Source of the DNA: Deltaproteobacteria bacterium | Lineage (GTDB): Bacteria; Desulfobacterota; Syntrophobacteria; BM002 | Assembly: GCA_019309045.1 (NCBI GenBank) | Contig: JAFDGZ010000020.1 | Span: 1 to 40,917 of the forward strand | Reading direction: 5' to 3' | Length of the DNA: 40,917 bases | The notes under the pieces: generated by a model | Database searches by the model: none | Seen by the model: only the letters and a program-made list of their open reading frames with translations | What the model was told of the DNA's origin: nothing | Program-made: the position numbers and the translations under genes | Shown: positions 12,931 through 26,894 of the stretch, piece after piece | Layout: each line of letters starts with the position of its first letter | How positions within the stretch are numbered: position 1 is the first letter of the stretch

Positions 12931-14157
12931 TCATTCCCCGAACTGAACCGAGTCATCTGTTGAGGCCATGTTCATGGTGTGTTCAAAAAGAAAACGTTCC
13001 AGTCTCTTTTGATAGGTGGTGAGTATATTGGTAAATTCGACACCCAGATATACCCAGTGCTCCTCATCGGATGATTCAGACAGATTTCGCAGAGTGCCGA
13101 TGCAGCGAATTGAATCCCACGGAGCTGGCAGGAGGATTTCCATGCGCAGCTGACACCCCACCGGCAGCTCGAGCAGGGATGGCTCTTTCACCTTGACGCG
13201 AACGCCTGATATTGAAATGTTGGTCGTAATGCAGGAATACTCTGTGTCTGCTGTGGCAATAGAGACCCCACTGGCGGGTGAGACTGAAAATCTGGCTTCC
13301 AGCTCCATCTGGTACCGCGGATGTCGACGCCGCTCAAAAGGCCTGATGTTCTTGTTCTTTTCGAGCTCCTGCAAGCGTTCCCGCTGATACTGTTCCAGCA
13401 TGGCCTTCACAATCGGAAACTCCTGCATAATCTGCCGTACTGCTTGAAAGCTCAGTTTGCCAAGGAGAGTATCCTGCTCTGCCTGCACCATGGCGGTTCG
13501 GGGCACCTTTATCAGCAGGGAAATCTCACCAAAAAACTGGTTTTCCGAAAGGTAACCGAGCAGAACCTCACCGCCCTGATCGTCATAGGTGAATACCCTG
13601 ACCTTGCCGTCCAGAATTACATAAAGAGAGTCGCCCCACTCTCCCTGTTCAATGATGGTCTTTCCCTGATCACAGGTGACAAGTTGCACAGCCTGACCTA
13701 TCCGCCGCAGGGCCTCCTCATTGAGACCGAGAAAAAGGGGAACCTTGGATATGGCCTCGATCACTCTCCTGGAACTGCGTGAAGGAGTGCTGCAATGTGA
13801 GTCGTCGGTCCTGGTTACGGTAAATTCATGGGTATCCTTCAGATCTATCTGCGCTGTGGATTCATCTTCCTGGAAAAAACGCAGCTTCACCTTGCCAATC
13901 TGGATCTTGTCGCCATTGACGAGAACTGCCTTTTTGATCTGTTCACCATTTACAAAAGTACCATTAAAGCTGCCAAGATCTTCCACAATACATTGACCGT
14001 CACGGCGATAAACTATGGCGTGCTTCTTTGATACTGTGCGATCCGACAGGTGGATGTCGTTGTCTATCTTCCTGCCGATGGTAAGGTGTTCTTCTATGGC
14101 AAACACCTTCTCGCCCAGAAGGCCTTCTTCAATTGCAAAATAAGATTTCAGTGCCAC
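12931..14157 (-). CDS. Signalling protein with FHA, cyclic-nucleotide-binding and PilZ domains
   Basis: This protein of about 408 residues joins three ligand-reading domains and has no catalytic or DNA-binding domain. The FHA domain (about 20-95) keeps Gly28-Arg29, Ser43, His46 and the NGTFVNG loop (65-71), so it should bind phosphothreonine. The cNMP domain (about 140-255) has the phosphate cassette FGEISLL (209-215) with Arg220-Thr-Ala. The PilZ domain (about 275-400) keeps both c-di-GMP motifs, RxxxR (Arg277 to Arg281) and NxSxxG (313-318). I chose the GTG at 14157 because GGAGG lies seven bases upstream; the adjacent GTG at 14160 and a GTG at 14250 are alternatives. It is divergent from the kinase-HDOD gene, a natural source of the phosphothreonine its FHA domain reads (inference). 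Confidence 0.85.
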   Translation of the reverse strand: MALKSYFAIEEGLLGEKVFAIEEHLTIGRKIDNDIHLSDRTVSKKHAIVYRRDGQCIVEDLGSFNGTFVNGEQIKKAVLVNGDKIQIGKVKLRFFQEDESTAQIDLKDTHEFTVTRTDDSHCSTPSRSSRRVIEAISKVPLFLGLNEEALRRIGQAVQLVTCDQGKTIIEQGEWGDSLYVILDGKVRVFTYDDQGGEVLLGYLSENQFFGEISLLIKVPRTAMVQAEQDTLLGKLSFQAVRQIMQEFPIVKAMLEQYQRERLQELEKNKNIRPFERRRHPRYQMELEARFSVSPASGVSIATADTEYSCITTNISISGVRVKVKEPSLLELPVGCQLRMEILLPAPWDSIRCIGTLRNLSESSDEEHWVYLGVEFTNILTTYQKRLERFLFEHTMNMASTDDSVQFGE

Positions 14158-14605
14158 CACTATTCCTCCCGGAAACCAAGCCAACTCCGGTACCGTGAAA
14201 AGATGCCAACTGCGGTCATTGTCACTGTCTATGTTGCAGCCCTTGACCACGCCACTGCTCGTTCACGGTCTTGCCACCTCACAAACAAAACGAGCAGACC
14301 TCGAGTGATTTGCTTTGCCAGCAGTGTGGATTCCTCCCGCAGAGAATCGAATTTTACCCACTGTGAGCCTCTACCAGCCAATATGGCACTGGCAGAAGAA
14401 GAGAAGTATAGCCACCCATATCCTGCACTGTGACCGAGCCAAGCCTGGTGGCCATGGTATCCAACTCGGGCAGCAATGGTCGCCTGCGGTTGTCTTGTGG
14501 ATGCAAAAACCGGACCTATCTTGAGCGGCCGTCACCTGTTGCTGTGGCCGGCACAGAGTTTGCTTCTAGATCAAGCAAGGCCCGCTAGAAAGTTCGAGGA
14601 GTAAG
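14158..14605. other. Divergent intergenic region between FHA-cNMP-PilZ and kinase-HDOD genes
   Basis: This stretch should hold the promoters of two divergent signalling genes. The right end carries the kinase ribosome binding site (GAGGAG, 14597-14602). I found no convincing sigma-70 hexamer pair, no small gene and no strong hairpin. The left 90 bases could encode an N-terminal extension of the FHA protein if its GTG at 14250 is used. Confidence 0.5.
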
Positions 14606-16471
14606 ATGGAAAACCAGCAGCTCGACAAGATTGGCCGCTTCAAGGTTCTGAGCAAGCTCGGCAAAGGTTCTCAAGGTACGGTATACCTGGCCCTTGATCC
14701 CTACCTGGAACGCAAAGTTGCCATAAAAACACTCAACGCGCGAAGTCCTGCAGGCGGCGACCGGCGGACGCAGCTTCTTCAGGAAGCAAGAATAGTGAGT
14801 AAATTGCAACACCCCAACATCATACCCATCTTCGAGGTGGGGGCCCACAAGGATCTGCCCTATCTCGTCTTTGAATATATCGATGGGACCTCTTTGAAAG
14901 AGTTGATCAGAGCGCAGGACCAGTTCCCTATTCCTGGTGCTGTGGGCCTTATGACACAGATAGTCGATGGCCTGGCCTATGCTCATCAGCGCGGCATCAT
15001 TCACCGGGATCTCAGTCCGGCCAATGTCCTTATTGGCAGCAACGGAGTTCCGAGAATAATGGACTTCGGCATCTCAAAGATGCTCAACGGCTCTGCTGAG
15101 ACTGCTGCTGATCTCCGAGGCACACTGCGCTACATGTCCCCGGAGCATTTCGCCAACAAACCCATAACCCCGGCCTCTGACGTCTTTGCTCTCGGCTTGA
15201 TCTTCTACGAACTCCTGGTGGGCACTGCTGCTGTGGATGGTGACAATGATTTTTCTGTGATGTACAAAATAGTAAACGAACCCATTGTGCCGCCCACCAG
15301 CTTGAATCCAAAGGTGGACCCAGAACTGGAGCGCATAATACTCAAGGCCCTCGAAAAGGACGCCTCTTCCAGGTATGCCGATGCCCAGGAAATGAAAACC
15401 GCTCTGGAGCTATACCAGAGCAAACAGCCGGCAGCCAGTATAAAGGGGCCCGGGGGCACAGGGACGCACAGCACCGTAGAATTTCTCCTGCGGCGCATGC
15501 GCCAGAAAAGCGACTTCCCTGCACTGTCCAACTATATCGTCCAGGTAAACGATATGACCTCTTCCTCCAGTGCAGCATCCGCCAAACAACTCGCCCAGGT
15601 TATTCTCAACGACTACTCTCTGACCAACAAGCTGCTGAAACTGGTAAACTCCGCCTATTATGGCCAGTTTACTGGAGGGGTAACCAGCATTTCCCAGGCT
15701 GTGGTGCTCCTCGGCTTCGAACAGGTGAGATTGGCAGCAACCAGTCTCATATTGTTCACCCATTTGCATGGAAAATCCACCTCCTCCAGGCTGGGAGATC
15801 CTCTTATAAGGTCCTTCACCAGCGCCATTATTGCCCGGGACCTGGCAATGATGCTGGGTATTCAGGAAAGGGAAGAGGCCTTCATCTGTGCCCTTTTCCA
15901 CGACCTCGGCAAGAACCTGGCCGCATACTATTTTTCCGACGAATACATAGAGATAGAGGAACTGGTGCTCAAGAGGGGATTCGACGAACAGGCAGCTTCT
16001 CGTCTCATTCTTGGCATATCTTACGATGAACTCGGAGTGAATGTGGCAAAAGAATGGAAGTTCCCGGAGAGAATAGTCTACAGCATGCGGAGTCTGCCCG
16101 AAGGAAAAGTGGAGAAGCCGAGCTCCACTCTAGATCTACTGCGCCACTTCTCAGCTCTTGCTAACCAGCTCTCGGCTGCTGCCGCCACTACTGCACCCAA
16201 GAAAAAGCTGCAAACTCTGGAGGAAATTGCCTGTAGATTTCAGCCCAGCCTCACCACAACCCCGGCAGAGCTTGCCACTTTGCTCGAAGGAGCTGTGGAC
16301 AAGCTCCTGAATTATTCTGAATTTCTTGGCATCAATACCAAGAAGAGCTCTTTTATCCAGCGGCTTATTCAGTGGTCCAGGGAGAAGTTGGACAATGGTT
16401 CAATCCTAGCTGAGAATGCTGACTGCTGCCAGATCCCGGCGGACAGCGGTTCCACTGAATTGGAAGCCTAG
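14606..16471 (+). CDS. Serine/threonine protein kinase fused to an HDOD domain
   Basis: This 621-residue protein has an N-terminal Hanks-type kinase and a C-terminal HDOD domain. The kinase (about 11-270) shows the glycine loop LGKGSQGTV (18-26), the ATP lysine VAIK (Lys41), Glu60 of helix C, the catalytic loop HRDLSPAN (133-140), DFG (153-155) and SPE (178-180). The catalytic loop has Ser137 where most kinases have lysine. The HDOD domain (about 300-500) includes ILNDYSLTNKLLKLVNSAYYG and FHDLGK (431-436). HDOD domains are usually non-catalytic regulatory modules; this one keeps the His-Asp pair. There is no transmembrane helix, so it should be cytosolic. The ATG at 14606 follows GAGGAG closely. 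It probably phosphorylates partners read by FHA proteins encoded nearby (inference). Confidence 0.92.
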   Translation: MENQQLDKIGRFKVLSKLGKGSQGTVYLALDPYLERKVAIKTLNARSPAGGDRRTQLLQEARIVSKLQHPNIIPIFEVGAHKDLPYLVFEYIDGTSLKELIRAQDQFPIPGAVGLMTQIVDGLAYAHQRGIIHRDLSPANVLIGSNGVPRIMDFGISKMLNGSAETAADLRGTLRYMSPEHFANKPITPASDVFALGLIFYELLVGTAAVDGDNDFSVMYKIVNEPIVPPTSLNPKVDPELERIILKALEKDASSRYADAQEMKTALELYQSKQPAASIKGPGGTGTHSTVEFLLRRMRQKSDFPALSNYIVQVNDMTSSSSAASAKQLAQVILNDYSLTNKLLKLVNSAYYGQFTGGVTSISQAVVLLGFEQVRLAATSLILFTHLHGKSTSSRLGDPLIRSFTSAIIARDLAMMLGIQEREEAFICALFHDLGKNLAAYYFSDEYIEIEELVLKRGFDEQAASRLILGISYDELGVNVAKEWKFPERIVYSMRSLPEGKVEKPSSTLDLLRHFSALANQLSAAAATTAPKKKLQTLEEIACRFQPSLTTTPAELATLLEGAVDKLLNYSEFLGINTKKSSFIQRLIQWSREKLDNGSILAENADCCQIPADSGSTELEA

Positions 16472-16777: not shown

Positions 16778-17974
16778 TTATAGCTCTCCTTCCGATTGAG
16801 ACCTGATGAGCCTTCGGAACCGCTTGTAGAGCACAGGGTGGAAACGAGTGCCAACCTGGGAGTCCATCCAGCGAATGGTGTCCGCCAGTGATAATGCAGC
16901 GCGACCAGGCCGATGTTCACGCCTGTTGTCGAATGCATTGGCTATGGCAACCACCAGGCTGGCCAGATTGAGCTGCCTGGGTCGCTCCTGATGGGGAAAG
17001 CCACCACCGTCATAGTAAAGATGATGCTCGTAAGCCACGATGGGTACCAACTCCGGCAATCCTTTACTTGCCGCCAGGAACTTGGCCCCCCGTATTGGAT
17101 GCTCCCAGCTCTGCATTTTCAGGTCCAGGCTCGAGGTGGTACTCATGGACTCTGCCGAGGTGGCAAAGAGATGAAATCCGATATCATGCAGCAGACCGCC
17201 CAGCCCTATATCGAGAAGCACACCTTCCTCGAGATGCAGCTGTCGTCCAAGGATCATGCTGAAAGCAGCCACATTAAAAGCGTGCAGGAACGGCTCCGGT
17301 TCGGGATGCCGCTGATATATGATCATCTTCAGTGGTATCTCTCCGTCTACAGCCATGCGGTATATGCTGGCGACAGTTTCCCGGGCCATGGAAAGTTTGG
17401 CAGCAGACAGTGTGGTGGTCACTCCAGCAAACAGGTCCCTCAACTGCTGCGATAGAGAAAAAAGTGCCTGACGCGAGCCTTTCAATGCGCCGGCAAGCTC
17501 CTCGAAAGAAAATTGGCTGCTGACATCGAGCGGTAAACTACCCACAGCAACGTGGGGCAGCTGCTTGATGCCAGAATCCAGTGGAGCGCCTTCCTTATTG
17601 GCAGAGGTCTCGAGAAGTCTGAGGAGAATGTCCAGGAAACGGAGGAGCTCTTCTTTTTTGAGGCCACGACTGAACATGAGCCGTTGCAGCTTCAGCTGTT
17701 CGAGTCGTTCGAGGACTCTTGCCAGGGTCTTGCCAATATCCGGAAACGGTACGTTTTCGACAACGACCTCTTGCGGTACGAAAAGGATGGTCAGATTGGG
17801 ATGCAGTTTCAGATATTTATCGAGAGCAGAAAACAGTAAGCCGGTTTTTTTCTCTATCTCGGGGTGTCCTGTAGGATAGAGCTTGAGAGCGCGCAGAGTA
17901 CCGAACAACTGCAGCACCACACTCCGGTAGAAAGCATGCAGTTTTGTGTTCTCCTCTGGAGCGATCACTGTCAT
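16778..17974 (-). CDS. HD-GYP-like domain protein with a conserved N-terminal domain
   Basis: This protein of about 398 residues carries a C-terminal HD-GYP-like phosphohydrolase domain. Metal ligands are visible: LLHDIGF (His263, Asp264), HPIRGAKFL, YEHHLYYDGGGFP (Asp322) and NAFDNR. The usual HDxGK lysine is replaced by phenylalanine and GYP reads GFP, so activity on c-di-GMP is uncertain. The N-terminal half (about 10-130) has a helix, LRALKLYPTGHPEIEKK, then short strands and FSRGLKKEELLRFLDIL. This matches the N-terminal region of the HEAT-repeat protein encoded just upstream. I chose the ATG at 17974, which follows AAGGTGCAGG; an upstream start at 18022 would overlap the HEAT gene. The gap to that gene is only 13 bases, so the two form an operon. 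Confidence 0.82.
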   Translation of the reverse strand: MTVIAPEENTKLHAFYRSVVLQLFGTLRALKLYPTGHPEIEKKTGLLFSALDKYLKLHPNLTILFVPQEVVVENVPFPDIGKTLARVLERLEQLKLQRLMFSRGLKKEELLRFLDILLRLLETSANKEGAPLDSGIKQLPHVAVGSLPLDVSSQFSFEELAGALKGSRQALFSLSQQLRDLFAGVTTTLSAAKLSMARETVASIYRMAVDGEIPLKMIIYQRHPEPEPFLHAFNVAAFSMILGRQLHLEEGVLLDIGLGGLLHDIGFHLFATSAESMSTTSSLDLKMQSWEHPIRGAKFLAASKGLPELVPIVAYEHHLYYDGGGFPHQERPRQLNLASLVVAIANAFDNRREHRPGRAALSLADTIRWMDSQVGTRFHPVLYKRFRRLIRSQSEGEL

Positions 17975-17987
17975 CCTGCACCTTCTT

Positions 17988-20036
17988 TCAAAGAAGACTG
18001 CGACACAAGGTGCGCAAGTCACCGCGGCACTGTTGGGCAGCCCTCTCCAGGGCTGACTTTGCTCCAGCCGTGCCTATCTCTGCCAGAGCGCGAGCAGCAG
18101 CCTTCTTCTGAACCATATCTTTTCTGGTTCTCAACCAGGACTTTTTCATGAGCATATCACTGAGACTGGCAACCACCCCATCCGCCCGCATCTTCCCAAG
18201 AACCTCGATGGCTTTCAGTCTTACCTGCATATTGCGGTGGTTCAACAGCCCTTCGACCTGGGGGAGACATCGCTTTGCCTCACATATAGTTACAAGTGAA
18301 AGAAGCCGGGGCAGCAGTGCTTCTGATGCTGTTTGCAGCTTGCGGCTCAAAGGTTTGCTGAGTCCAGTTCCAAGACTGCCCAGGGTAGCAAGAAGCCAGC
18401 GGTGCTTTTCGCTCTGCTCTGCCTCCGTCAACTCCAGCACATCCAGCAGAAAGCTGCCGGCCTTCCCGACAAAGAGCTGACACACTGCATTGATCGCCAC
18501 TGTCTCATTTGGGCTGTATGTTTTGCATCTTCCAATAAGATGCTCCAGGAGAGTTCTTATGTCATCCTCGCTCATTTGCGACTCTATGGTACGGGCGGCA
18601 AGATCTCGTTGCGGATGATTGGCCAGCTTGAGATACAGCTGACGGAGCATCAGACCAGCATTGAGGAATCTGTCGTCATTTATGAGCCGGCTGATAGTCT
18701 TGCCCACATCCTGCAGCAGAGGCAGGAGCAGGGCCTCGCCCCATGGCGACCGATCCCTGTCGATCAACTCGATGATGAGTTCACACCTGGAGACCTGGAG
18801 CACCTCGGGCAATAATGTCTTCAAGAGACGATCAATTTCCTCATCTTCGGCAAGAGGCATATCAAGGTGGAGGGTGGTCTTGAGTCCTTCGATTTCTTTG
18901 CGGTACTGCTCGTTTAATTCCTCTGCCTCCTGCCTTTCTACAATGAGCTGCTCGAGAAGCTGCCATTTGCTGAGGAAATCTCTTTCGCCCTCTTCCAAGG
19001 TCCTGTGCATTTCTGAGCGCACCAGAGTGAGCAGTACCGCAGGATCCCTGTATCTTGCCAGCGCATGCTGAAAGAGATTCCTGTAATGGGGGGCCAGAGC
19101 CGTGTCATGTTCCACGGTTGCTGCCAGCAGCCATACCAGTTGGCGGTCGGGCATCTCCTGCACAAGCTCATGGATAATAGTATTCTCCCCGGAAGTCTTT
19201 CCTGGAGCAGCCACAGCACCAAGGATTTGCATGCTGAGCTCCGGCTCCAGGGATTCCAGAGCAACGCTCACCTGGCGGACGAAATTGGCTCTTTCTGCAG
19301 AATTCACACTGGCAAGGGTGGCGGCAAGATTTTGAATAAAATTTGCCAACAGCACGCCTTTGGCACTGTTTGTTCCAGCAACTTCTGAAGTGCTGAGAGA
19401 TGCATCCAACTGCTCCAGCAGCTTCTGGAATTCTCTGGCATCCTGCCATACACGCAACAGTTTGCCAATCTGCTCTGGATGAAGATGAAATATGCCAGCC
19501 CCGGCAGGGACAAGAATGAGCTGCCTCCACATAGCCTCTTCAGAACTGTTGGCAGCAAAATTCGTGGAAACAGCAGCAGCGCTTGAAAAGATAGAGTAGT
19601 CCACAAAGCCTACTCGCACCCGCTGGATGTTTTCTCGACTCAAGGCAGCATCAATGGCCTCTCCCTGGCCGCGGCGGGCGGTGGCAATAAGCTCCACCAC
19701 AGTTTCGAGCTCTGCCAGTTTGACACCCTTGTCTACCAAAATGTAAGAAATTCTCAAGGCATGAATAAAAGAGACGAACTTGTTCAAAGCGGGTTCCGCC
19801 ACCCGGTAGAAATCACCCTCCCAGTACAAGGCATCTCTGGCAAAACCGAGAAAGAGAAAGTCCCGCCCCTGGAAAATAATCGCCAGCTTTGCCTGAAACT
19901 CTTTGCTGTGTTGTTTGAAAAGGTCATGGGTCTTGGCATAGAGTCTGGCAGTATTCAGCACCCGTATAAAAGCGACCAGAAAATCGCGCACAGGGCCAGG
20001 AAGAGATTTATTGCTGCTTTTTTTGTCCTCAGCCAT
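17988..20036 (-). CDS. HEAT-repeat-containing protein of unknown function
   Basis: This protein of about 682 residues is mostly helical. The N-terminal domain (about 15-140: FIRVLNTARLYAKTHDLFKQH, then DFLFLGFARDALYWEGDFY, then YILVDKGVKLAELETVVELI) resembles the N-terminal part of the HD-GYP-like protein encoded downstream. A charged coiled-coil-like stretch follows near residues 350-390. The C-terminal 130 residues contain HEAT/PBS-like repeats such as LLNHRNMQVRLKAIEVLGKM and MVQKKAAARALAEIGTAGAK. No signal peptide or membrane helix is seen, so it is probably a cytosolic scaffold. The ATG at 20036 (MAEDKKSSNK) is the best start; a reading from 20141 would add 35 low-complexity basic residues. 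The role is unknown, but the operon and shared domain suggest it works with the HD-GYP-like protein. Confidence 0.75.
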   Translation of the reverse strand: MAEDKKSSNKSLPGPVRDFLVAFIRVLNTARLYAKTHDLFKQHSKEFQAKLAIIFQGRDFLFLGFARDALYWEGDFYRVAEPALNKFVSFIHALRISYILVDKGVKLAELETVVELIATARRGQGEAIDAALSRENIQRVRVGFVDYSIFSSAAAVSTNFAANSSEEAMWRQLILVPAGAGIFHLHPEQIGKLLRVWQDAREFQKLLEQLDASLSTSEVAGTNSAKGVLLANFIQNLAATLASVNSAERANFVRQVSVALESLEPELSMQILGAVAAPGKTSGENTIIHELVQEMPDRQLVWLLAATVEHDTALAPHYRNLFQHALARYRDPAVLLTLVRSEMHRTLEEGERDFLSKWQLLEQLIVERQEAEELNEQYRKEIEGLKTTLHLDMPLAEDEEIDRLLKTLLPEVLQVSRCELIIELIDRDRSPWGEALLLPLLQDVGKTISRLINDDRFLNAGLMLRQLYLKLANHPQRDLAARTIESQMSEDDIRTLLEHLIGRCKTYSPNETVAINAVCQLFVGKAGSFLLDVLELTEAEQSEKHRWLLATLGSLGTGLSKPLSRKLQTASEALLPRLLSLVTICEAKRCLPQVEGLLNHRNMQVRLKAIEVLGKMRADGVVASLSDMLMKKSWLRTRKDMVQKKAAARALAEIGTAGAKSALERAAQQCRGDLRTLCRSLL

Positions 20037-21350: not shown

Positions 21351-21908
21351 ATGGAGGCACTGAAAAGCTACCCTCACTCGGTGGTCCTCAACGATGGCAC
21401 GCAGGTCACTTTGCGACCGCTAGCCCGGAAAGACAAGGCCAAGCTCATCGATTTCTTTTCCCGAGTCCCAGCCGAAGACCGCCTCTACCTTCGAGACGAT
21501 GTGACCAACAAGGATCTGGTCGCCGGTTGGGTGGATAATCTGAATTTTGACCTGGTGCTGCCCATCATCGCCGAGGTCCAGGAACAAATAGTGGGAGATA
21601 TCACCTTGCAGCGGCGAAGATTCGGCTGGAAAAAGCATCTTGGCGACGTGCGCGTGGTGGTAGCCAGGGAGTTCCAGAAAAAAGGACTGGGCAGTGTGCT
21701 GATCAAAGACATCATCACCCTGGCAACTGAGCTCGGCCTGGAAAAACTCATGGTGGAAGTTCCAGTCAAGTCCATCGCAGCTATCAAAGCCTTCAGCCGC
21801 TGTGGCTTCCAGCGCATTTCCGTGCTCAACGATCTGGTGAAAGACCAGAGTGGTCAATATGCCAGTATCTCAGTAATGGTATATGATTTGCGGCCACCTG
21901 AATTCTAG
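21351..21908 (+). CDS. GNAT family N-acetyltransferase (first of a tandem pair)
   Basis: This 185-residue protein belongs to the GNAT superfamily and should transfer an acyl group from acyl-CoA to an amine of an unknown acceptor. The start YPHSVVLNDGTQVTLRPL resembles the entry strand of Pat/RimI-like enzymes. The CoA pyrophosphate loop is FQKKGLGSVLI (108-118). The gene starts at ATG 21351 after AAGGAG. The next gene, about 70 bases downstream on the same strand, is a paralogue with the same length and the same landmark residues (AED, LRDDV or LKEDV, GDxxL), so they probably arose by duplication. The acceptor may be a protein lysine or a small molecule; the sequence does not decide. Confidence 0.86.
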   Translation: MEALKSYPHSVVLNDGTQVTLRPLARKDKAKLIDFFSRVPAEDRLYLRDDVTNKDLVAGWVDNLNFDLVLPIIAEVQEQIVGDITLQRRRFGWKKHLGDVRVVVAREFQKKGLGSVLIKDIITLATELGLEKLMVEVPVKSIAAIKAFSRCGFQRISVLNDLVKDQSGQYASISVMVYDLRPPEF

Positions 21909-21978
21909 CTTGACCCAGCTGCCGTTTGACCATGGTCTGACTGTAGCGGTGCTGGCTATATCTGGAGGAGGAATTCAA

Positions 21979-22539
21979 ATGAATGTGAGCACTTACAGAA
22001 AATTTATCACGCTGGCAGACGGCTCTCGAGTCCTGTTTCGACCTTTGGTCCATGCTGACCAAGAAAAACTGGTGGCCCTTTTTCAACAGGCTTCGGCTGA
22101 GGATGTCCTGTTCCTCAAGGAGGATGTCCGAAACCCGGAGCTGGTTGGTTCTTGGGTGAGGGAACTGAACTATGACAAAGTAATACCGATTGTGGCTGTC
22201 CGCAACGAAGAGATCATCGGCGATGCTTCTCTTCATCGACGTACAGGGACCAAGCGTCACACCGCAGAGGTGAGAATATTCCTGGCCCCGGCATTCCGGG
22301 GCATCGGCCTCGGCTCCGTCATGGTATCGGAACTCGTTGCCCTGGCGAAAAACCTGGGTCTGAGACTTCTCGAGGGCCAGATTGTGGTCGACCAGGTCAA
22401 CGTGATCAAGGCCTTCCGCAAGTTAGGATTCAAACGGGTGGCTGATATCGACGACTACTTTATGACTCAGGACGGCCGCACCCACGACGTTGCCCTGATG
22501 ATCCTGGAACTGAAAGAAGAGCGGGAGTACAGGTTCTAG
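21979..22539 (+). CDS. GNAT family N-acetyltransferase (second of a tandem pair)
   Basis: This 186-residue GNAT protein is the paralogue of the preceding one. The start ITLADGSRVLFRPLVHADQ aligns with the same region there. The acetyl-CoA binding loop is FRGIGLGSVM (106-115), in which the RxxGxG form is better conserved than in its neighbour. I chose ATG 21979 because GGAGGAGG lies about nine bases upstream; a frame from 21883 would overlap the preceding gene. The two genes differ at many surface positions, so they may have different acceptors. The nearest downstream gene is the glycerophosphodiesterase on the same strand after a 142-base gap without clear features. Confidence 0.86.
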   Translation: MNVSTYRKFITLADGSRVLFRPLVHADQEKLVALFQQASAEDVLFLKEDVRNPELVGSWVRELNYDKVIPIVAVRNEEIIGDASLHRRTGTKRHTAEVRIFLAPAFRGIGLGSVMVSELVALAKNLGLRLLEGQIVVDQVNVIKAFRKLGFKRVADIDDYFMTQDGRTHDVALMILELKEEREYRF

Positions 22540-25874: not shown

Positions 25875-26624
25875 CTATCCCACGGTGAGTTCAAACACAT
25901 ACGGTGAACTTACAGCACCCAGGATGAGTCGATGCGAGCCCTTGCTGAGAGCAAATCTCTTGCTCTCTTCCCGGCCGCCGATTCGCACGGAATCGACAAT
26001 GGTACCCTTGCTGCTCACTGAATCAACAAGGTAGTACTGACCATCTACCGCGGTTATCAGACAGTGGCAGCGAGATATCTGGTAGGGTTCTATATCTTGC
26101 AGGTCTAGATCATTGGTACCGAATATGCTCTGTTTGGTGGCTCTGCCGATTTGGAAGGGAATTTTCTTAATTTGCACGCTTTCTCTTCCCAACGCCCGTC
26201 GAGATTCTTCGGTGAGGGCTCTGATAGTGATCAGCAGTGCTTCGCTCTCCTGGGCCTCTATCTCGGTGGGATCACAAAAAGCAGCAACCATCTGGTTCAG
26301 ATATCGCACACGGCTGAACACCTGCCGAAGCACAGGCAACAGCATTTTGGGGTTTTGCTCCAATATCGATTCGAAAGACTTCCGGTCAATCACGCGCACC
26401 TCGGTGTCCTCGAGAGCAGTAACGGAAGCGGATCTCGGTTTTTCATCTATCAGGCTCATCTCACCAAAAATGCTGCCTACGCCCAATTTGGATAGGACTA
26501 CTTCTTCACCTCCCACTTTCTTGGACACCTGCACACTGCCAGACCGTATGACGTAGGCTACGGAGCCAACGCTTCCCTCTTCTATAATCACCTGGCCTTT
26601 GTTGAACTTCTTCACCGCAACCAT
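25875..26624 (-). CDS. Cyclic-nucleotide-binding domain fused to an FHA domain
   Basis: This 249-residue protein has a cNMP domain (about 3-115) with the cassette FGEMSLI (53-59) and Arg64-Ser-Ala. A linker helix follows, then a C-terminal FHA domain (about 150-248) with IGR (159-161), ISRCHCLI (183-190) and YYLVDSVSSKGTIV (197-210). In the FHA phosphothreonine loop the usual Asn-Gly before the threonine is Lys-Gly (KGT), which may alter or weaken phosphopeptide binding. I chose ATG 26624 with AGAGGTGA seven bases upstream; in-frame ATGs at 26657 and 26762 are alternatives. There is no effector domain, so it is a reader or adaptor. Its domain order is the reverse of the FHA-cNMP-PilZ protein at 13-14 kb. 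Confidence 0.86.
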   Translation of the reverse strand: MVAVKKFNKGQVIIEEGSVGSVAYVIRSGSVQVSKKVGGEEVVLSKLGVGSIFGEMSLIDEKPRSASVTALEDTEVRVIDRKSFESILEQNPKMLLPVLRQVFSRVRYLNQMVAAFCDPTEIEAQESEALLITIRALTEESRRALGRESVQIKKIPFQIGRATKQSIFGTNDLDLQDIEPYQISRCHCLITAVDGQYYLVDSVSSKGTIVDSVRIGGREESKRFALSKGSHRLILGAVSSPYVFELTVG

Positions 26625-26894
26625 AGCATCACCTCTGCTGCCTTCTTTGGAGTCCATACTGAGGACAAGCAGCAAATCACTGAATCGTACTATGCACGAG
26701 TCAGCAAGAGGTTCAACCCTCTTCCATTGCTGCCACACAGATGCAGACGTATATGTTGACACGCAATAAAGATGCCAACATGAGCGTCAGCAGCAGCTTG
26801 AGCAATGCTTGGCTTGCTGATCAAGAAAAGAAACCGCTTCATGGAAGGTGTGAAGGAAAAAGTTTATTGAATCGCGGCAAAATATGGTGCAATT

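Follow-up and report, generated by a model that had tools for sequence, protein, structure and literature searches.

Cross-talk of Hanks-type kinases, cAMP or cGMP, and c-di-GMP in bacteria has mostly been inferred from separate proteins, and the closest described analogues are two-way systems, namely the FHA–GGDEF protein DgcB, the CNB–EAL protein Bd1971 (CNB, cyclic-nucleotide-binding domain) and the kinase–PilZ protein Pkn1. The phosphothreonine switch itself has been described for GarA, the FHA domain of which binds an ETTS phosphosite located in the protein's own unstructured extension (PMC5448819), and for DgcB (Bd0742) of Bdellovibrio, whose FHA domain binds its own phosphorylated N-terminal tail (PMC6733907). 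Bd1971 of Bdellovibrio binds cAMP and carries the 14-residue cassette FGEMALIDNQNRSA (PMC6717892). Pkn1 of Myxococcus xanthus is a Ser/Thr kinase–PilZ protein, the PilZ domain of which has been predicted to be unable to bind c-di-GMP, a messenger that is not bound by PlpA (PMC8316039).

The protein considered here is encoded in a stretch of 40,917 nucleotides, referred to as the window, and comprises an FHA, a CNB and a PilZ domain. Like GarA and OdhI of Actinobacteria, it is a small cytoplasmic FHA protein with a threonine motif in a disordered stretch separate from the FHA domain, but the GarA phosphosite is N-terminal to the FHA domain and GarA has neither CNB nor PilZ, whereas the candidate site of the window protein is C-terminal to it and its phosphorylation is putative. 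With DgcB it shares the coupling of an FHA domain to c-di-GMP signalling; however, DgcB makes c-di-GMP, while the window protein, which has a CNB, would be limited to sensing it. Bd1971 likewise connects a cAMP-sensing CNB and c-di-GMP in one chain, with a cassette of equal length that holds the key arginine, yet its output is enzymatic (EAL) and it lacks FHA and PilZ. Pkn1 combines Hanks-type phosphorylation with a PilZ domain and is analogous to a PilZ–CNB–kinase of the window protein's own genome, but it is a kinase and not a phospho-reader, and no CNB has been reported for it. In agreement with the initial annotation, which knew of no characterised protein with this combination, the open-access literature, covered with 5.39 million papers, has yielded no description of FHA, CNB and PilZ in one protein.

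Gene and Ligand Sites

The open frame 14250–12931 (−) spans 439 codons and is open back to a GTG at 14250. As GGAGG precedes the GTG at 14157 at a spacing of 7 nt and the N-termini of the homologs coincide with this point, the likely gene is the one initially annotated, which encodes 408 aa (Table 1). Residue numbers refer to the 439-aa frame, and those of the 408-aa protein are obtained by subtracting 31.

Three Pfam matches exceed their cut-offs, for FHA (residues 57–119, 71.8 bits against 20.7), cNMP_binding (residues 193–277, 71.8 bits against 27.5) and PilZ (residues 306–423, 43.9 bits against 22.5). The residues previously read as intact have all been found, i.e., the phosphothreonine-site residues R60 (in GR), S74 and H77 (in SxxH) and N96 (in N[GT]) of the FHA domain, the CNB cassette FGEISLLIKVPRTA with E242 and R251, and both c-di-GMP motifs of PilZ, R308-x-x-x-R312 (RRHPR) and N344-I-S-I-S-G349. 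Judged by these motifs, all three ligand sites of the window protein are intact. The residue that follows the cassette arginine is a threonine (PRTA), which by itself does not discriminate between cAMP and cGMP. In PDB searches by sequence and by fold, the CNB matches PKG, PKA-R and CRP-type domains, and GarA matches the FHA domain at 1.5e-15 in the PDB sequence search. Since the 50 fold matches listed are all CNB structures or CNB-containing proteins, the assignment of FHA and PilZ rests on sequence profiles; the AlphaFold2 model, built from 3 sequences (pTM 0.37), is uninformative on the domain arrangement. The earlier statement that the protein has no output domain is doubtful, because PilZ domains commonly act through bound partners.

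Table 1. Features of the FHA–CNB–PilZ gene and of its divergent neighbour (window coordinates).
Feature	Position	Strand	Basis
FHA–CNB–PilZ protein, 408 aa, GTG start	12931..14157	−	ORF, Pfam, homolog starts
Ribosome-binding site GGAGG, 7 nt before GTG at 14157	14165..14169	−	Sequence
FHA domain (phosphothreonine site R60, S74, H77, N96)	13894..14082	−	Pfam PF00498, 6.6e-20; same position in a second PF00498 scan
Linker T140 codon (T109 in the 408-aa protein), D-T-H-E-F, candidate phosphosite	13831..13833	−	Conservation, rate rank, motif count, pLDDT
Cyclic-nucleotide-binding domain	13420..13674	−	Pfam PF00027, 4.6e-20; PDB sequence and fold matches
Phosphate-binding cassette FGEISLLIKVPRTA (E242, R251)	13492..13533	−	Motif; length as in Bd1971 FGEMALIDNQNRSA
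PilZ domain	12982..13335	−	Pfam PF07238, 3.1e-11
PilZ motif RxxxR = RRHPR, R308–R312	13315..13329	−	Motif reading
PilZ motif [D/N]xSxxG = NISISG, 344–349	13204..13221	−	Motif reading
Ser/Thr kinase–HDOD protein, divergently transcribed	14606..16471	+	Pfam Pkinase 1e-53, HDOD 6.9e-40; VAIK, HRD, DFG intact

Distribution and Phylogeny

Altogether, 30 full-length FHA–CNB–PilZ proteins have been found in three bacterial families (f1, f4 and f26) of one phylum, besides 11 FHA–CNB siblings of ∼285 aa without PilZ. The class (56 genomes) holds 25 full-length copies, distributed over 12 of the 13 f1 genomes, with up to four in each, and all three of f4, the other families of the class having none. Across the phylum (395 genomes), further full-length copies have been seen, among the matches listed, only in f26 (G075, three in G112, and G147). 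The window belongs to f1, and its genome contains a second copy (C24) that is 31% identical. As the assembly lacks 16S rRNA, the organism has been placed through its relatives. The top relatives among the matches listed share 39–41% identity across ∼390 aa, with full-length homology and the same domain order. A single-sequence scan of 84,980 genomes gave 0 matches. The occurrence in other phyla has been judged from the best 80 loci of a profile scan, among which Deltaproteobacteria bacterium CTSoil_058 and bin63 (both 'Deltaproteobacteria' MAGs) carry full-length members and all others are without a second family domain in frame. Mobility by phage or plasmid is unsupported, as viral contigs have given no FHA–CNB–PilZ match and no plasmid record covers 80% of the query.

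In the tree calculated from the FHA–CNB columns, the window protein clusters with the copies from f26 and with a group of two-domain proteins (support 99/97), outside the larger f1 clade; long branches make the identity of its immediate neighbour uncertain. FHA–CNB–PilZ is a real, conserved architecture and apparently constitutes an undescribed variant of known multi-domain signalling adaptors. Its earlier presentation as unusual holds, but with 30 full-length members the protein is not unique.

Constraint on the Core and Lability of PilZ

When 390 sites are ranked by slow rate over 41 relatives, the FHA residues S74, N96, H77 and R60 take ranks 1, 5, 6 and 13, the linker residue T140 rank 10, and E242 and R251 of the CNB ranks 15 and 21. 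Regarding these positions within the first 21, the FHA and CNB residues are under constraint and do not represent a chance match. The PilZ residues R312, S346, G349, N344 and R308 follow at ranks 31, 32, 41, 94 and 100, and the mean site rates are 0.90 for FHA, 0.80 for CNB and 1.30 for PilZ. Within the full-length members, all four FHA residues are kept in 29/30, the CNB residues in 30/30 and all five PilZ residues in 22/30; the eight proteins with decayed PilZ motifs have intact FHA and CNB residues. In the clade characterised by this decay, R308 has been lost in 7/9 and S346 in 8/9 members.

No PilZ remnant, frameshifted ones included, has been detected within 2 kb downstream of the 11 two-domain siblings. 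The FHA–CNB tree requires six changes between the two- and three-domain architectures, at least five of them on well-supported branches, and since none of the major branches is without three-domain forms, loss on several occasions is the more likely direction; PilZ has apparently been lost at least five times. Based on these losses and on the motif decay, FHA–CNB emerges as the constant core and PilZ as the variable part of the family. Many relatives lack PilZ or carry a decayed one, so that integration of three signals is not a trait shared by the entire family, and the family evidence indicates that FHA and CNB matter most. For the window protein, three-way signal integration is plausible: this earlier suggestion is backed by three intact and mostly strongly conserved ligand sites and by matching writers in the genome, but has to be qualified in that the three readers are unequally constrained.

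A Conserved Threonine in the Linker

The linker between FHA and CNB is variable and gappy, and it is predicted to be disordered, with a pLDDT below 50 at residues 99–128 of 408 (AlphaFold2, 3 sequences). T140 is a threonine in 39/41 relatives, in all 39 located 12–13 residues past the FHA domain and embedded in [ED]-T-x-[EQ]-[ILMF], with D-T-H-E-F as the window version. An alignment-free count has found T-x-[EQ]-[ILMFV] in 31/41 linkers, compared with a mean of 5.0 and a maximum of 13 in shuffled ones. A conserved threonine motif is therefore situated in a predicted disordered segment near the FHA domain, as would be expected of a self-docking switch. FHA domains often read the +3 residue, and some favour a hydrophobic one. 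T140 is thus a candidate self-docking phosphosite like those of GarA and DgcB, and by analogy to these proteins we infer its phosphorylation and its binding by the protein's own FHA domain. The linker threonine could also serve as a docking motif without phosphorylation.

Gene Neighbourhoods, Kinases and Messenger Enzymes

The window gene is divergent from the kinase–HDOD gene, with which it shares an upstream region of 448 bp, and by this position the kinase–HDOD protein is a candidate for the cognate kinase. Adjacency to a kinase has been rejected as a family trait, because relatives are found without it and only one of them (L086) has a kinase fragment nearby. The other neighbours of the window gene encode an amidohydrolase, a peptidase C26 and an oligopeptide ABC transporter, which contain no hint of the output; nor does this neighbourhood hint at c-di-GMP turnover or at a pilus or secretion machine. 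Near the kinase gene, 16778-18022 (−) encodes a protein with an HD domain that contains LLHDIG and in which a divergent YDGGGFP replaces the HD-GYP signature, possibly an atypical c-di-GMP phosphodiesterase.

In 9/9 genomes of the clade marked by PilZ motif decay, a gene that keeps an intact GGEEF motif lies downstream on the same strand (L067:5747-8795 (−) and eight equivalents), and the one scanned with Pfam encodes a dCache–HAMP–GGDEF protein. Of the three copies in G112, G112c is bordered by genes for a receiver–HD_5 (HD-GYP-type) protein and a hybrid histidine kinase, and G112b is followed by genes for a T2SSE–MshEN ATPase, a T2SSF protein and a PilM-like protein. A further member, G012c, lies directly downstream of a T2SSE–CNB fusion, a secretion/pilus-type ATPase with a C-terminal CNB (L080:5361-7424 (+)). 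Such neighbourhoods point to an action of some members at c-di-GMP turnover and at pilus or secretion machines.

The genome of the window encodes eight Ser/Thr kinase domains, five matches to class III nucleotide cyclases (one weak), five GGDEF matches (one partial), 38 PilZ matches and 12 FHA matches. Among its kinases is a PilZ–CNB–Ser/Thr kinase fusion (L253:350-2134 (−), contig C96), in which RxxxR, NxSxxG, GEIALLTGEPRTA and the kinase motifs are intact and which could be gated by both c-di-GMP and a cyclic mononucleotide. Seven further f1 genomes encode full-length counterparts of this protein that are 58–63% identical to it, G004 encodes a shortened one, and the f26 genome G112, in which three relatives of the window protein occur, has one of 50% identity. 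None has been found in G003, G005, G007, G009, G075 and G147, and a few f6 genomes without an FHA–CNB–PilZ reader carry distant versions. As the window's genome and G112, a genome with the closest relatives, encode this kinase, a putative writer and a putative reader share two sensor types there; owing to the patchy co-occurrence, with no such kinase found in six genomes and no reader in these f6 genomes, the link between both remains suggestive.

Proposed Mechanism and Alternatives

We propose, with a probability of about one half, that the window protein is a non-enzymatic, phosphothreonine-switched adaptor, the output of which is protein binding tuned by a cyclic mononucleotide and c-di-GMP. 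A Ser/Thr kinase would phosphorylate the conserved threonine of the flexible FHA–CNB linker, a partner protein, or both, and the FHA domain would dock on the phosphothreonine of its own chain or of another copy of the protein. Docking would reset the arrangement of CNB and PilZ, and the cyclic mononucleotide bound at the CNB and c-di-GMP bound at PilZ would tune the same conformational switch. The output would consist in the binding or release of partners, plausibly of secretion/pilus ATPases or c-di-GMP enzymes such as those encoded beside several relatives. Ligand binding, self-docking, partners and output of this adaptor are what we infer from the sequences.

Doubtful, and still the most probable of the alternatives, is that the functional core is FHA–CNB, a cNMP-gated phosphothreonine adaptor, with PilZ as a dispensable protein-binding accessory under little or no c-di-GMP control. 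In favour of this reading are the 11 siblings that lack PilZ and show no trace of it in the 2 kb downstream, the minimum of five well-supported architecture changes, the decay confined to the PilZ motifs in 8/30 members and the faster mean rate of PilZ (1.30, against 0.90 and 0.80). All PilZ ligand residues are, however, kept in 22/30 proteins, the window protein included, R312, S346 and G349 still rank 31, 32 and 41 of 390, and the genome has GGDEF proteins together with 38 PilZ matches. Many CNB and PilZ domains of other bacteria bind no ligand. In the case of c-di-GMP, this applies to PlpA and, by prediction, to the PilZ domain of Pkn1 (PMC8316039). One or more of the sites might accordingly be non-sensing, i.e., scaffold folds with ancestral motifs in an adaptor that plays a structural part in a pilus, secretion or envelope machine. 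The position of two relatives next to T2SSE-type ATPases, one of them CNB-fused, is consistent with this. We regard this as improbable, since the slowest sites include ligand residues and not fold residues alone, and the window gene adjoins no pilus or secretion machine.

Even less probable is that the window protein is the dedicated partner of the divergent kinase–HDOD protein, as its substrate or its regulator. FHA proteins are often encoded near kinases, and the divergent arrangement around a shared 448-bp upstream region and the intact catalytic motifs of the kinase fit such a pairing, but it is not conserved, no other relative having such a kinase beside it apart from a fragment near L086, and the genome contains seven other kinase matches.

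Returning to the phosphothreonine-switched adaptor, a more elaborate version may be postulated, in which FHA–CNB–PilZ and the PilZ–CNB–kinase constitute a writer–reader circuit, both gated by a cyclic mononucleotide and c-di-GMP, with the self-docking linker as the switch. We hold this circuit to be rather unlikely. If true, it would form a signalling hub that reads the second-messenger state twice, at the writing and at the reading of the phosphate. The matching PilZ–CNB–kinase suggests that coupling of these messengers may be a designed feature of a whole lineage, and the FHA–CNB–PilZ family may connect signalling by protein kinases with two nucleotide messengers. With three intact readers and a candidate phosphosite in one small soluble chain, and with variants without PilZ at hand, integration becomes directly testable with purified protein.

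Other Combinations of the Same Modules

The same modules occur in several combinations within the genome, namely PilZ–FHA, CNB–FHA and PilZ–CNB–kinase. Two PilZ–FHA fusions (L026:910-1863 (−) and L027:907-1881 (−)) are each located downstream of a same-strand gene that, by sequence reading, encodes a sigma-54-type AAA+ activator. In the window, 25875-26762 (−) encodes a protein in which a CNB precedes an FHA domain, the latter with SRCH and with SKGT replacing the usual NG. The window also contains, at 21351-21908 and 21883-22539 (+), tandem genes for similar proteins that read as GNAT acetyltransferase-like.
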